From: a virus
Direction: 5' to 3' (one strand)
IMG/VR virus record: IMGVR_UViG_3300045118_000108
Location: 1-21,374 of that record
Length of the DNA stretch: 21,374 nucleotides
Of the stretch, positions 3,055-14,995 are shown one piece after another (position 1 is the first letter of the stretch; every line of letters starts with the position of its first letter). The translations under genes were made by a program, and so were the position numbers. A model generated the notes under the pieces. It saw nothing but the letters and a program-made list of their open reading frames with translations. It was not told the DNA's origin and did no database searches.

Positions 3055-3124
3055 TGACCTCAAAGTGACCTCAACATGACCTTAAAAGACCTCAAATATG
3101 GCAAGTTGACCTCAACTGACCTCA
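3055..3124 (+). repeat. Helically phased TGACCTCA iteron array (candidate replication origin)
   Basis: Directly after the stop of the replication gene, six copies of the octamer fill the gap before the next ribosome site. Exact copies are at 3055, 3066, 3107 and 3117; one-mismatch copies are at 3077 (TGACCTTA) and 3087 (AGACCTCA). Start-to-start steps are 11, 11, 10, 20 and 10 bases, so all sites face the same side of the helix. A position near 3097 is skipped. Together with the intragenic cluster this gives eleven sites. Iterons bound by the neighbouring replication protein are the simplest reading; an operator array is the alternative. Confidence 0.75.
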
Positions 3125-3139
3125 AAACAGGGGGTTGAT

Positions 3140-5730: not shown

Positions 5731-5832
5731 ATGCTTGCCTTCTTCTTTGGCGTGTTTGTAGGGACGTTCCTAGGAATGCTCATTATGGCGCTGTTGGCCA
5801 TGGCTAGGGATGGGAGCGATTATGACTTCTGA
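5731..5832 (+). CDS. 33-residue membrane peptide, DUF3789-like
   Basis: ATG 5731 follows a GGAGGGGGAGAG purine tract by a few bases. The product is almost entirely one hydrophobic helix with glycines (FFFGVFVGTFLGMLIMALLAMA) and a short acidic tail, ending DYDF. This is the pattern of DUF3789-type mini-membrane proteins, common in phages and mobile elements and of unknown role. It overlaps the next gene by 11 bases. Confidence 0.65.
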   Translation: MLAFFFGVFVGTFLGMLIMALLAMARDGSDYDF

Positions 5833-6019
5833 TATATCCCGGTGTCCTAAGTGCGGTGCAAAATTTCTTCCTTTCCCCGTAAGCCCTTGTACTAAGAATG
5901 GTATTATCTTGGATGTGGCTCTGCCAGGTTGGGAGTGTGGGTCAATGGGGTATGGATGTACTCACCAGACAGAAGAATGTAAACGGCGGGAAGGTCATGC
6001 AGCGTGGAGATATACTTAG
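5822..6019 (+). CDS. Small zinc-ribbon-like protein
   Basis: The 65-residue frame is taken from ATG 5822, which has GGGAG at 5812-5816; an in-frame ATG at 5810 would sit without a site. It contains CPKC near the N-terminus and further cysteines (SPC, ECG, GC, EEC) with a His, consistent with a metal-binding knuckle. It overlaps the preceding membrane peptide by 11 bases. Its last 116 bases lie antisense to the ribbon-helix-helix gene, so the two are convergent and overlapping. Function is unknown. Confidence 0.6.
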   Translation: MTSDISRCPKCGAKFLPFPVSPCTKNGIILDVALPGWECGSMGYGCTHQTEECKRREGHAAWRYT

Positions 6020-6104
6020 CCACAGACCAGCCCCGCGCCTTTGCCGCCCTTACGATTGCCTCTCTTTTATCATCGGGCATGTTTCGAATTTGCATGAAGC
6101 CCAT
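5904..6104 (-). CDS. Ribbon-helix-helix (Arc/FitA-type) DNA-binding protein
   Basis: The 66-residue leftward product begins with a classical ribbon-helix-helix: a short beta strand MQIRNMP, then helix DDKREAIVRAAKARG, a turn, and helix WSVAKYIST. Such proteins are dimeric repressors or antitoxins. The start at 6104 has AAGGGGG at 6117-6111, six bases upstream, and a good promoter overlapped by a perfect inverted repeat. Residues past about 45 are not family-like and run antisense to the end of the zinc-ribbon gene. No toxin gene is adjacent on the same strand, so a repressor role is preferred over antitoxin. Methionines at residues 1 and 4 are both possible starts. Confidence 0.7.
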   Translation of the reverse strand: MGFMQIRNMPDDKREAIVRAAKARGWSVAKYISTLHDLPAVYILLSGEYIHTPLTHTPNLAEPHPR

Positions 6105-6119
6105 ATCGGACCCCCTTGG

Positions 6120-6164
6120 TTATGATAGTATAGACATCATAATTCAAGAACATACAAAAGTCAA
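6120..6164 (-). promoter_or_regulatory. Promoter and operator of the ribbon-helix-helix gene
   Basis: On the minus strand TTGACT (-35) lies at 6164-6159, a 17-base spacer follows, and TATGAT (-10) lies at 6141-6136. A perfect 7-bp inverted repeat, TTATGAT (6120-6126) and ATCATAA (6136-6142) with a 9-base spacer, covers the -10 and the expected start point near 6129. Binding of the encoded dimer there would block its own transcription, so autorepression is inferred. Confidence 0.7.
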
Positions 6165-6213: not shown

Positions 6214-6241
6214 TTGACATTCGCAGTTGTCTTGCTTTAAT
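6214..6241 (+). promoter_or_regulatory. Rightward sigma-70 promoter of the zinc-peptide/RNA cassette
   Basis: TTGACA at 6214-6219, a 16-base spacer and TTTAAT at 6236-6241 (or TTAATT with 17) form a near-consensus promoter. The flanks are AT-rich. Transcription would start near 6249 and enter the 35-residue gene and the structured region. It is divergent from the promoter at 6136-6164, with 50 bases between their -35 boxes. Confidence 0.65.
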
Positions 6242-6263: not shown

Positions 6264-6371
6264 ATGAAAGTCTGTCGATTTTGCCTCAAGTGGGTAGATT
6301 GGATTCTCCCCCGGCTGTTTAACGGCATACCCGTCCGGCATCGCTGCCCGCACTGCGATAGGTATCAGTGA
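6264..6371 (+). CDS. 35-residue zinc-ribbon peptide
   Basis: ATG 6264 has TAAGGAG at 6251-6257. The product has two CxxC knuckles, CRFC at residues 4-7 and CPHC at 28-31, spaced as in a minimal zinc ribbon, with a hydrophobic, Trp-containing middle. It is the first gene after a strong promoter and is followed by the long structured non-coding stretch. Peptides of this type are frequent in phages; their function is not known. Confidence 0.65.
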   Translation: MKVCRFCLKWVDWILPRLFNGIPVRHRCPHCDRYQ

Positions 6372-6734
6372 GCCTTGCAAGGCCCCTGGCCGGTGGGGTT
6401 AAAATCCTAACACATGGTTTAGGTGTCACTGGCAGCCGGTAGGAAGTGCACTCCTGAGTCCTGTCAGCGATGATTGTGGCTACCCCGATCGGAACCGATG
6501 CGGGGAGAGACCCGGAGCTTGCCGGGTCCGGCTGGTGTTAAAGGGAGGGGGCAGACACCGGGGACGCCCAGTGCCCCTCCCGGTTTTGTAACACCGAGCG
6601 GGAAAAAGGATGAGGCAAGGACGGCCTGGAAGCCTGAGCGCCGACTTCCTAGTAGTGGAACCGCTTCTAATAATAACCCCTTTGGCGCGTAGCCGCCGCG
6701 TCCCTGTGCAAAATATAAATAGCGGCTTGAATCT
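6372..6734 (+). ncRNA. Candidate large structured RNA, unrecognised family
   Basis: About 360 bases hold no convincing gene but many strong helices. GGGGTTA (6395-6401) pairs with TAACCCC (6674-6680) and closes a 286-base domain. Inside are: CTGGCAG/CTGTCAG (6429-6435 with 6461-6467, one G-U); CCCCG+ATCG with CGAT+CGGGG (6483-6505, one bulge); GACCCGG/CCGGGTC (6509-6515 with 6522-6528); GGTGTTA/TAACACC (6534-6540 with 6589-6595) enclosing GGGAGGGG-CA/TGCCCCTCCC (6543-6553 with 6572-6581); and TGGAAGC/GCTTCTA (6627-6633 with 6663-6669). Outside are palindrome GCCTTGCAAGGC (6372-6383) and AGCCGC/GCGGCT (6691-6696 with 6722-6727). It has no RNase P, tmRNA or clear intron signatures. The helices were found by eye. 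Confidence 0.55.
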
Positions 6735-6914
6735 ATGAACACTCAATCTCGATCAGCCTTAAAACGCAAATTCTTTCCATCAGGTCCCGATCTTTGTACT
6801 AACTGCGAGGCAGAATTGACTTTTTCCTTCTCCCCGCTTATGATGATCTGTGAAAGCTGCGGGGAGTATTGGCCGTATGATATAGAACCCATAGGGCGGC
6901 CTGCCGGGAATTGA
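6735..6914 (+). CDS. Zinc-ribbon hypothetical protein
   Basis: The 59-residue frame from ATG 6735 has CTNC at residues 21-24 and CESC at 39-42, a two-knuckle zinc ribbon, followed by an acidic and aromatic tail (GEYWPYDIEP). It has no evident ribosome site, and an in-frame stop lies just upstream, so the start is fixed by default. It lies directly downstream of the structured RNA stretch; control of its translation by that RNA is possible but unproven. Confidence 0.55.
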   Translation: MNTQSRSALKRKFFPSGPDLCTNCEAELTFSFSPLMMICESCGEYWPYDIEPIGRPAGN

Positions 6915-6937
6915 CCCGGCGGAGTAGGGGAAAGGAC

Positions 6938-7477
6938 GTGAGTAAACTGCTTATTGATGAACCACCTCTTCAAGTTCTTCCAAGGTTAGCCACCGTTATA
7001 GGTTTACACGAGGCCATTATTCTTCAGCAAATCCATTATTGGCTGGAAATTAATAAAAAAGTGGGGAGAAATTTTAAAAACGGATACCATTGGACATTTA
7101 ATTCTTATATGTCTTGGCAGGAACAATTTCCATTTATAAGCTTGATGTCTATTAGGCGGGCAATCGGGAATCTCAGAAAACAAAAACTTTTAATTACTGC
7201 AAATCTCAGTCCTCACAAATTTGATAATACTCTCTGGTATAGAATAAATTACCCCGCAGTTAACTCTCTGGAGTTAGTCTCTGTAGGCCAGGAAAACCCC
7301 GCCAGTCCTAATGAAAAAGACGGTCTAAATGACAAAAAGAACAAGTCGTCTGTTCAAAATGAACACACTATAGACGATCCTATCCCCAAAGACGAAAGAT
7401 ATGATAAGATGCGTATGCAATATCTAATTCACCAAGAAGGAAAGAAAAAATCTAGAAAGGGAAAGGCGGTTCATTAA
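6938..7477 (+). CDS. Winged-helix replication-type/HTH phage protein
   Basis: The 179-residue product begins LLIDEPPLQVLPRLATVIGLHEAIILQQIHYWLE, a block I know from many phage and conjugative-element proteins annotated as replication or HTH proteins. It continues with a winged helix (WQEQFPFISLMSIRRAIGNLRKQKLLI near residues 59-88) and a charged, probably disordered tail. It likely binds DNA as a replisome organiser or a regulator. The start GTG 6938 follows an AGGGGAAAGGA tract. An upstream extension of nine residues would overlap the previous stop. Confidence 0.7.
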   Translation: MSKLLIDEPPLQVLPRLATVIGLHEAIILQQIHYWLEINKKVGRNFKNGYHWTFNSYMSWQEQFPFISLMSIRRAIGNLRKQKLLITANLSPHKFDNTLWYRINYPAVNSLELVSVGQENPASPNEKDGLNDKKNKSSVQNEHTIDDPIPKDERYDKMRMQYLIHQEGKKKSRKGKAVH

Positions 7478-7550: not shown

Positions 7551-8096
7551 ATGGCTAAAGCCAAGCTAACCGCAAAACAGGCTAAATTCATTGAGGAATA
7601 TTTGATAGACCTTAATGCTTCCGCCGCCGCCAAACGTGCCGGGTTCTCACAGAAAAATTCCGATATTATTGGCTATCAGTTGCTTCAGAAAACTACAGTT
7701 CAAAAGGCCCTCGCTATTGCTCGCCAAAAACTCTCTGCAAAAGCTGGGGTTACTCAAGAAATGGTAATCGAGGGTTTCCGGCAGATAGCCCAAGCCGATC
7801 TTGCCGAGTGTTACAATCCTGACGGAACCCTGAAGAATATTCACGACATCCCCGCAGAAGCTCGGCAGGCATTAGCAGGGGTTGAAGTGTTTGAAGAACA
7901 TGATGGCAGGGGAGAAAACAGAACGTTTGTTGGCTACACAAAGAAAATAAAGATGTGGGATAAGGTGAAGGCCCTCGATTCTCTAGCAAAGCATTTAGGC
8001 CTATACGATGCGGACAATAAACGAAAATTATATCTATCAGTAGAAGAGATGTCCGATGAAGTCCTCCAAAATATCGCCACAGGAAGCGGCGATTGA
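7551..8096 (+). CDS. terS: Terminase small subunit
   Basis: The 181-residue product is a clear Terminase_2-type small subunit. LTAKQAKFIEEYLIDLNASAAAKRAGFS is the family's DNA-binding helix-turn-helix block, followed by an oligomerisation region and the WDKVKALDSLAKHLGLYD motif typical of its C-terminal half. It recognises the packaging site of the concatemeric genome and recruits the large subunit. ATG 7551 is preceded by a GGTAGGGT purine-rich tract. The last 41 bases overlap the large terminase gene. Confidence 0.92.
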   Translation: MAKAKLTAKQAKFIEEYLIDLNASAAAKRAGFSQKNSDIIGYQLLQKTTVQKALAIARQKLSAKAGVTQEMVIEGFRQIAQADLAECYNPDGTLKNIHDIPAEARQALAGVEVFEEHDGRGENRTFVGYTKKIKMWDKVKALDSLAKHLGLYDADNKRKLYLSVEEMSDEVLQNIATGSGD

Positions 8097-9492
8097 GTTA
8101 TTAAAAAGGCGGCAGGCGAGGAATAACTTAATCCCCTTTGTAGAGTATACAAAGCGGGATTTTGTTACATCGGCCCATCATTTGTTAGTTGCGTCTTATC
8201 TGGAGCAGGTAGAACGTGGGGAGATTAACAGGTTGATGATATTTTCACCGCCACGTCACAGTAAATCAGAATTAGCTTCCCGCCGCCTTCCGGCCTGGTA
8301 TCTGGGCCGTAATCCCAATAAACAAATCATAGCCGCATCATACAATTCCGACTTAGCATCAAGTTTTGGCCGGGATGTCCGCAACCTGGTAGCCGATTCC
8401 TATTACCAAAACATCTTCCCTGGCGTGAGTCTGCGTCAAGATTCTAAAGCTGCTGACCGGTGGAACACTGTTAATGGCGGCTCCTATCTATCTGCTGGTG
8501 TAGGGTCCGGTATTACCGGTCATGGGGCCGATCTGGGGGTAATAGATGATCCCTTTAAGGACAGGAAAGAAGCCAACAGTCAGACTATCAGAGATAACGT
8601 CTGGGATTGGTACAGATCTGCTTTTTATACTCGGCTCATGCCTGGGGCGGCTATAATTTTGACCCTAACCCGCTGGCATGAAGATGATTTGGCCGGGCGT
8701 CTTTTGAAGGAAATGAAAAGTGGTGGTGACCAGTGGACGGTGTTGAGTCTCCCAGCCTTGGCCGAAGAAGATGATATGATGCGGAGATCGCCGGGCGAGG
8801 CCCTTTGGCCTGAATGGTATCCTCTCGCTACCCTTCAGCAAATTCAGGAAGTTATCGGCACTTATGACTGGAACGCTCTTTACCAGCAGCGCCCTTCAGT
8901 CGAAGAAGGCAACATTTTTAAACGTCACTGGTGGAAGAAATATAGAGAATTACCAGAGAAATGTGAAATAATCCAGTCATGGGATACGGCCTTTAAAGAC
9001 ACTACCGATAGTGATTATTCGGTATGCACTACCTGGGGTTTTGCAAAAAACCAGATATTCCTAATAGATAGGTGGAAGGGGAAAGTCGAATTTCCTGAGT
9101 TAAAAAGATTGATATTGGCTCAGGCGTTAAAATTAAAGGCAAATGCAGTCCTTGTAGAAGATGCTGCCTCTGGCCAATCATTGATTCAGGAAATGAAAAA
9201 GGATTTAAGGTTAAGAATTATACCCATTAAGCCCGACAGAGATAAGAAAAGCCGCGCTTATGCGGTAACTCCTTTCATTGAAAGTGGGAGGGTTCTATTG
9301 CCTGAATGGGGATCGTGGGTTGAGGAATATATAGATTGTATGGCCAAGTTTCCTTCCGGCAGTGATGATGATGATGTTGATAGTACGACCCAGGCACTTA
9401 ATTATTTGCGAAATAGATTGCATTCTGATAGATATGATCAAATTAGTCCGTATAATAAGCCAGCCATTGTTTCCTGGGACATGTTTGCTTAA
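8056..9492 (+). CDS. terL: Terminase large subunit
   Basis: The 478-residue protein is the packaging motor. The ATPase half shows a Walker A variant SPPRHSKSE (64-72), Walker B GVIDD (D164, D165) and the coupling motif LTLTRWHEDDL (202-212). The RNase H-like nuclease half shows D310 in QSWDTAFKD, E368/D369 in LVEDAASG and an acidic cluster at 437-442. The pattern matches the phage terminase subgroup with a Terminase_6C-type nuclease domain. It cleaves and pumps DNA at the portal. The gene starts inside terS and its length is normal for the family. Confidence 0.95.
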   Translation: MKSSKISPQEAAIELLKRRQARNNLIPFVEYTKRDFVTSAHHLLVASYLEQVERGEINRLMIFSPPRHSKSELASRRLPAWYLGRNPNKQIIAASYNSDLASSFGRDVRNLVADSYYQNIFPGVSLRQDSKAADRWNTVNGGSYLSAGVGSGITGHGADLGVIDDPFKDRKEANSQTIRDNVWDWYRSAFYTRLMPGAAIILTLTRWHEDDLAGRLLKEMKSGGDQWTVLSLPALAEEDDMMRRSPGEALWPEWYPLATLQQIQEVIGTYDWNALYQQRPSVEEGNIFKRHWWKKYRELPEKCEIIQSWDTAFKDTTDSDYSVCTTWGFAKNQIFLIDRWKGKVEFPELKRLILAQALKLKANAVLVEDAASGQSLIQEMKKDLRLRIIPIKPDRDKKSRAYAVTPFIESGRVLLPEWGSWVEEYIDCMAKFPSGSDDDDVDSTTQALNYLRNRLHSDRYDQISPYNKPAIVSWDMFA

Positions 9493-13946: not shown

Positions 13947-14075
13947 GGATTACCTCTTAATGGGAGGCCCGGCAATTATTTGAAACACCCAACAACTGGA
14001 CTACCTCGATAGAGGCCCGGTTATCAGCCGTAACGAATAACTGAGGCCCCGCCATTGGCGGATTAGCCGAAAAAA
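13947..14075 (+). repeat. Tandem hairpin repeats in the capsid gene leader
   Basis: The 176-base gap before the capsid gene has two related hairpin units. Unit A (13947-13972) is GGATTACCTC, a 7-base loop and GAGGCCCGG. Unit B (13998-14020) is GGACTACCTC, a GATA loop and GAGGCCCGG. A third partial copy, GAGGCCCCG, begins at 14043 and runs into the hairpin CCGCC-ATT-GGCGG near 14048-14060. GGTTA/TAAC pairing lies between. They may protect or process the capsid mRNA or control its translation. Confidence 0.55.
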
Positions 14076-14116
14076 CGCAAGTAAGATTCATCAACTTTTT
14101 TCGGAGGTTCTGACCA

Positions 14117-14995
14117 ATGGCGGATACGATCCCCACTGCATTTGTTAAGAAATACGAAGCCAATATCACTCTGCTGGTAACGCAGATTGAATCGTATTTC
14201 CGGTCCCTGGTGACTATCAAGACCATCACGCCGGGACAAAAACTCTATATCGACTACGTAGCGGCCATTACTCCCCAGAAGGTTACGGGGCGTCATGCCG
14301 ATACTCCTATTCAAATCCCCGTTCATTCCCGGCGTCGGATCGTGGCCGAGCAGTATGTCGGCGCGACTCTGATCGACAAGGCCGATGTGGACCGGATGCT
14401 TTCCGATCCTGCCGGGGCCTACATGAACGCTTTCCGGGCCGGTTTCATGCAGAAAATCGACACCGTGATTGCCACTGCTGCTATCGGCAACTCCTACAGT
14501 GTTGAGACTGAGGACGAGACCGAGACGGCTATTGCTCTGCCCTCCAGCCAGAAAGTTACCGAATCCGGCACCGTGGGCATGACCCTTCAGAAAGTGCGTG
14601 AGGCCCTGAAAATTCTCAACACCAATGACGTGGCCCTGATTACTCCCAAGTTCATGGCCCTGTCTCCCCAGGCGATTTATGACCTGCAAGGCGAGCCGGA
14701 ATTGACGGACGCCGAGTCTATGGCCCTAAAGGTGATTCAGGAGGGCAAGATTGACCGGGCTTTCGGTTTCAACCTGGTAATGAGCAATCGCCTGTCCATC
14801 GCCAGCAATATCCGGTCTAACTTCGCATGGACCCAGGACGGTATCGGCCTGGGGCTGATTCAAGACCTGGAAACCTCCCTGACCATCCGTAACGACAAGA
14901 ACATGGCCCGGCAGCCCTACATGAGCATGGATTTTGGGGCTACTCGGCTGCAAGAAAAACTGGTGGTCGAGGTGCAGGGTTACGAAGCACCCTAA
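14117..14995 (+). CDS. Major capsid protein
   Basis: The 292-residue product is placed as major capsid protein by its position directly after the scaffold and by its pattern: an N-terminal helix with a long IPVHSRRRIVAEQYVGATLIDKADVDRML stretch as in podovirus HK97-fold coats, a glycine/alanine-rich middle, VALITPKFMALSPQAIYDLQGE (the conserved spine-helix/ITP segment), and a C-terminal MDFGATRLQEKLVVEVQ strand. It is shorter than T7 gp10A (345). The strong CGGAGG site at 14102-14107 and even codon use fit a highly expressed gene. Confidence 0.88.
   Translation: MADTIPTAFVKKYEANITLLVTQIESYFRSLVTIKTITPGQKLYIDYVAAITPQKVTGRHADTPIQIPVHSRRRIVAEQYVGATLIDKADVDRMLSDPAGAYMNAFRAGFMQKIDTVIATAAIGNSYSVETEDETETAIALPSSQKVTESGTVGMTLQKVREALKILNTNDVALITPKFMALSPQAIYDLQGEPELTDAESMALKVIQEGKIDRAFGFNLVMSNRLSIASNIRSNFAWTQDGIGLGLIQDLETSLTIRNDKNMARQPYMSMDFGATRLQEKLVVEVQGYEAP

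Follow-up and report, generated by a model that had tools for sequence, protein, structure and literature searches.

A non-coding phage stretch with a locally structured core, possibly a cis-acting mRNA segment, in an uncultured T7-like virus

We analyzed a non-coding, GC-rich stretch of 363 bases (6372-6734, + strand) in IMG/VR record IMGVR_UViG_3300045118_000108, an uncultured virus contig whose 21,374 bases constitute the window of this study. Only the middle of the stretch, a core of three hairpins at 6478-6605, is clearly more stable than shuffled sequence. We tentatively interpret the stretch as a cis-acting leader or intercistronic segment of a rightward mRNA, which would affect transcription or the fate of the message. 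Since only these ~125 bases beat chance and no relative was found in the collections searched, a local control segment is the likeliest reading; a new RNA class is not demonstrated. The original prediction had called the stretch the strongest candidate for such a class. This claim is unsupported because folding of the whole stretch is no better than that of shuffled sequence, and the evidence for a new RNA class from 6372-6734 is weak.

The window encodes a large terminase, a connector, a capsid protein, tail tubular proteins A and B, a helicase loader and a primase/helicase-like protein, and this gene content indicates a T7-like podovirus. The nearest capsids come from pelagiphages, for example HTVC203P (~40% identity, with similar gene order), and the nearest terminases are associated with mixed hosts. 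In IMG/VR, we found no relative of the large terminase above 53%, with the exception of one genome MAG that matches over a short segment at 56%, and no relative of the primase-like protein. The phage also encodes a SpoVG-family protein (656-943; PF04026, E 1.5e-11). A 65-base direct repeat with diverged copies (2267-2331 and 3063-3127) and many TGACCTCA motifs occurs once within the primase-like gene and once just past the gene end, and could possibly provide an origin or binding sites.

Open reading frames within the stretch score between -0.16 and -0.24 bits per codon under the codon model, compared to -0.03 to 0.29 for real genes, and all six frames of 6372-6734 fall below the real genes. 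This confirms the prediction that the stretch holds no credible protein, as does its GC content (59% versus 49%) the prediction that it is GC-rich. A decayed gene was rejected after neither the codon model nor Pfam detected any trace of one in the six frames. When 6372-6734 was scanned with the Rfam 15 covariance models, no family matched at the gathering score, including large ornate RNAs of the GOLLD, ROOL or OLE kind. Relaxing the threshold to E 5 returned only two implausible matches, sul1 and Xist_exon1; sul1 lies on the - strand and reaches 16.2 of the 36.2 bits needed. Group I and group II intron cores had no match up to the same E-value. The proposal that the RNA is unrecognised holds with respect to Rfam. 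The window contains no tRNA genes, and a tmRNA or tRNA origin of the stretch was rejected for want of signatures.

All the helices that had been listed for this stretch can be formed at the coordinates given. Positions 6395-6401 (GGGGUUA) pair perfectly with 6674-6680 (UAACCCC) and, past a U-U mismatch, the addition of 6389-6393/6682-6686 can extend this closing helix to 12 bp (strands 6389-6401 and 6674-6686). Internal helices form at 6429-6435/6461-6467, 6483-6491/6496-6505, 6509-6515/6522-6528, 6534-6540/6589-6595 and 6543-6550/6574-6581. The perfect 7-bp pairing proposed to close a 286-base domain therefore exists, but the closing helix is equalled in 18% of whole shuffles, in 6% of shuffles that treat the two ends separately and at 8% of other places in the window. 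Counts of helices of at least 7 bp give P 0.10-0.34; helices with at least 7 Watson-Crick pairs number 7, with 3.9 expected (P 0.10). Neither the closing helix nor the abundance of 7-bp helices exceeds what a GC-rich stretch yields by chance. The minimum free energy of the whole stretch, compared with dinucleotide shuffles, also gave a negative result (z -0.52, with 33 of 100 shuffles equally good). The main lesson is that long perfect helices listed in GC-rich sequence do not alone constitute evidence of structure.

The stretch had been described as highly structured over some 360 bases, which holds locally but not for the whole. The core consists of three adjacent hairpins (6483-6505, 6509-6528 and 6528-6602), and none of 200 shuffles is as stable as 6478-6605 (z -3.57). 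A 120-base version of the core, 6481-6600, reaches z -4.12 and ranks second among 709 sliding windows covering the entire 21,374 bases.

Local RNA structure in the window is strongest elsewhere, at 14011-14130 (z -5.6 to -5.7, 0 of 200 shuffles). Here, a long hairpin formed by CCGCCAUUGG...CCAAUGGCGG includes an inner stem CCGAAAAAA/UUUUUUCGG; it buries the CGGAGG ribosome-binding site together with the start codon (14117) of the gene for the major capsid protein, which suggests translational control of this gene. No such hairpin is detectable at the same place in pelagiphage HTVC203P (z -1.1).

The stretch lies behind a divergent control region. On the - strand, an ORF at 5904-6104, whose ATG is preceded by an AAGGGGG ribosome-binding site, weakly resembles FitA-like ribbon-helix-helix proteins (Pfam FitA-like_RHH, E 0.015, under its cut-off); it overlaps a rightward zinc-ribbon ORF at 5810-6019. 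Upstream of its start, a perfect 7-bp inverted repeat, TTATGAT-N9-ATCATAA (6120-6142; one match, 0.01 expected), is a candidate operator and overlaps the -10 of a leftward promoter-like site, TTGACT-17-TATGAT (6164-6136). From this arrangement, the ribbon-helix-helix protein is likely to be a local repressor that would regulate itself. A rightward promoter-like site, TTGACA-16-TTTAAT (6214-6241, + strand; hexamers at 6214 and 6236), can be read from the sequence, and is missing from the consensus promoter scan because its second hexamer, the -10, has no A at position 2. The near-consensus promoter that had been placed upstream of the stretch is therefore visible, but a 35-codon zinc-ribbon ORF intervenes (6264-6371, + strand). 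This ORF contains CxxC...CxxC, has a good ribosome-binding site (TAAGGAGAT) and matches nothing in Pfam or PHROG. Immediately after the stretch, a 59-aa zinc-ribbon-like ORF (6735-6914, + strand; sub-threshold Pfam zinc-ribbon matches) has no visible ribosome-binding site. It is followed on the same strand by the gene for a DnaD-like helicase loader (6911-7477; PHROG 6493, E 6e-41) and by those for the small and large terminase subunits (7551-9492; PHROG 51 and 38). We found neither a promoter nor a terminator belonging to the stretch itself, and the sequence from its end to 7000 shows no terminator-like site.

Because a promoter-like site and an ORF precede the stretch and genes follow it with no terminator-like site up to 7000, the simplest transcript would include it, untranslated, close to the 5' end. 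The rightward mRNA would start from the promoter-like site at 6214, cover the zinc-ribbon ORFs and then the helicase loader gene, and continue towards the terminase genes. We infer transcription across 6372-6734, and every functional step that would follow from it. Most likely, the core would act in cis on this transcript. Through attenuation or antitermination it could alter the passage of RNA polymerase, a function akin to that of the put leader RNAs of phage HK022. Alternatively, it could determine how the mRNA is degraded or processed between the first small ORF and the downstream genes. Several observations favor a cis-acting segment: the non-coding codon score, the stability of the core (z -3.6 to -4.1, with its rank among the sliding windows), and a position behind a promoter-like site, an operator-like repeat and a divergent repressor-like gene. 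Against it, the whole stretch is not more stable than chance and the rightward promoter is a consensus match only, with an imperfect -10.

The cis-acting reading is also supported by two relatives in which the corresponding operon begins with a promoter and a structured non-coding element close by. In the first (L002, terminase 52%; region 2390-2565), a near-consensus promoter, TTGACT-17-TATAAT, lies at -1023 and is directly followed by a ~110-base multi-hairpin element closed by a GGGGCU/GGCCCC pairing (z -1.9), which precedes an HNH-like ORF and the terminase genes. In the second (L003, terminase 48%), the promoter TTGACA-17-TAAACT lies at -671, and the region around 940-1200 reads as this promoter, an intrinsic-terminator-like hairpin with a T6 run, and a 75-base element with a perfect 14-bp closing helix (z -4.2 to -5.1); tRNA-Met(CAU) and the terminase genes come next. 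Like the stretch in the window, which follows a promoter-like site, both elements are located near the start of the operon, behind a promoter, and have a closing helix, but they share no sequence similarity with it and measure ~110 and ~75 bases. The two loci, whose terminases are among the closest, were selected from 15, and most of the others show nothing comparable; the parallel is therefore a suggestion and not a test. We consider it improbable that the operon leading to the terminase genes carries an undescribed large phage RNA of ~300 bases, made of the closing helix and the three-hairpin core, perhaps as one of a set of structured elements, unrelated to one another, placed near the operon start by phages with this type of terminase.

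No homolog of the stretch was detected in a DNA similarity search of phages and plasmids, at the loci of terminase, helicase-loader and zinc-ribbon relatives (blastn and nhmmer), or in the whole records of 18 relatives. Exact patterns taken from three parts of the stretch found none in IMG/VR, nor did that from one part in GTDB contigs; a handful of 16-base matches sit in unrelated sequence. The same was true of 1,434 prokaryote genomes from four phyla, although these searches limit rather than exclude relatives because they covered a sample only and had no positive control. Among the genome matches with E 0.0002-0.008, the five that were best by nhmmer or most interesting were read individually and discarded: they lie in or beside protein genes, and the rest of the element is absent. 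A covariance model of the core recovered nothing in the records of 24 relatives or in 398 genomes. In the window, which completed the set of 25 records, it matched its own site and only one weak site on the - strand.

A functionless or decayed GC-rich intergenic remnant between two small ORFs, with hairpins due largely to base composition, is a somewhat less likely reading. In its favor, neither the folding of the whole stretch nor the helix counts nor the closing helix exceed chance, and none of the collections searched returned a homolog. Against it, the core clearly beats its shuffles and stands near the top of the 709 windows. In addition, 363 untranslated bases are costly in compact phage genomes, and the six frames retain no trace of a decayed gene.

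The stretch could also be a discrete trans-acting RNA in the style of GOLLD and ROOL, processed from the transcript and with a structural, decoy or antisense role, but we regard this as rather improbable. It would fit a non-coding sequence, unmatched in Rfam, with a possible 12-bp helix over 286 bases; this helix does not exceed chance. With no terminator found behind it, the stretch looks more like an mRNA segment than a separate RNA of this kind, and no promoter of its own was found. GOLLD and ROOL are present across many phages and prophages, often near tRNA islands (PMC12286853), a location that is not obligatory; the element described here has no detected relative and the window has no tRNA.

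Less probable still is a DNA element, either a replication origin or a single-strand initiation site with hairpins acting as DNA. The nearby gene for the DnaD-like helicase loader is compatible with this role, and so are the GC-rich hairpins and a 12-base palindrome that can be read at 6372-6383. An iteron origin was rejected because 6372-6734 contains no direct repeats of this type, and several stem pairs are G-U, forming only in the + strand RNA. Finally, a self-splicing intron, or its relic, interrupting a zinc-ribbon gene is very unlikely: the zinc-ribbon ORFs on either side share a frame at a distance of 363 bases (121 codons), but this is expected by chance one time in three, the upstream ORF is already complete in its CxxC...CxxC and ends in a stop of its own, and no group I or II family matches up to E 5.

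Should the core prove to be a cis-acting control RNA, uncultured T7-like phages would gain a further example of their little-explored RNA leaders, and the presence of 363 untranslated bases in a compact genome would be explained. The put leader RNAs of HK022 are cis-acting leaders that control phage transcription, encoded by short sites, well under 100 bases, at the 5' end of the transcript. The stretch resembles them in being hairpin-rich, untranslated and near the start of a phage operon; it differs in being larger and located behind a small ORF. With GOLLD and ROOL it shares a phage origin, the absence of coding potential and a possible long-range closing helix. Unlike the stretch, these RNAs are larger, with many GOLLD exceeding 800 nucleotides, are often found near tRNA islands and are backed by covariation and Rfam families (PMC12286853).
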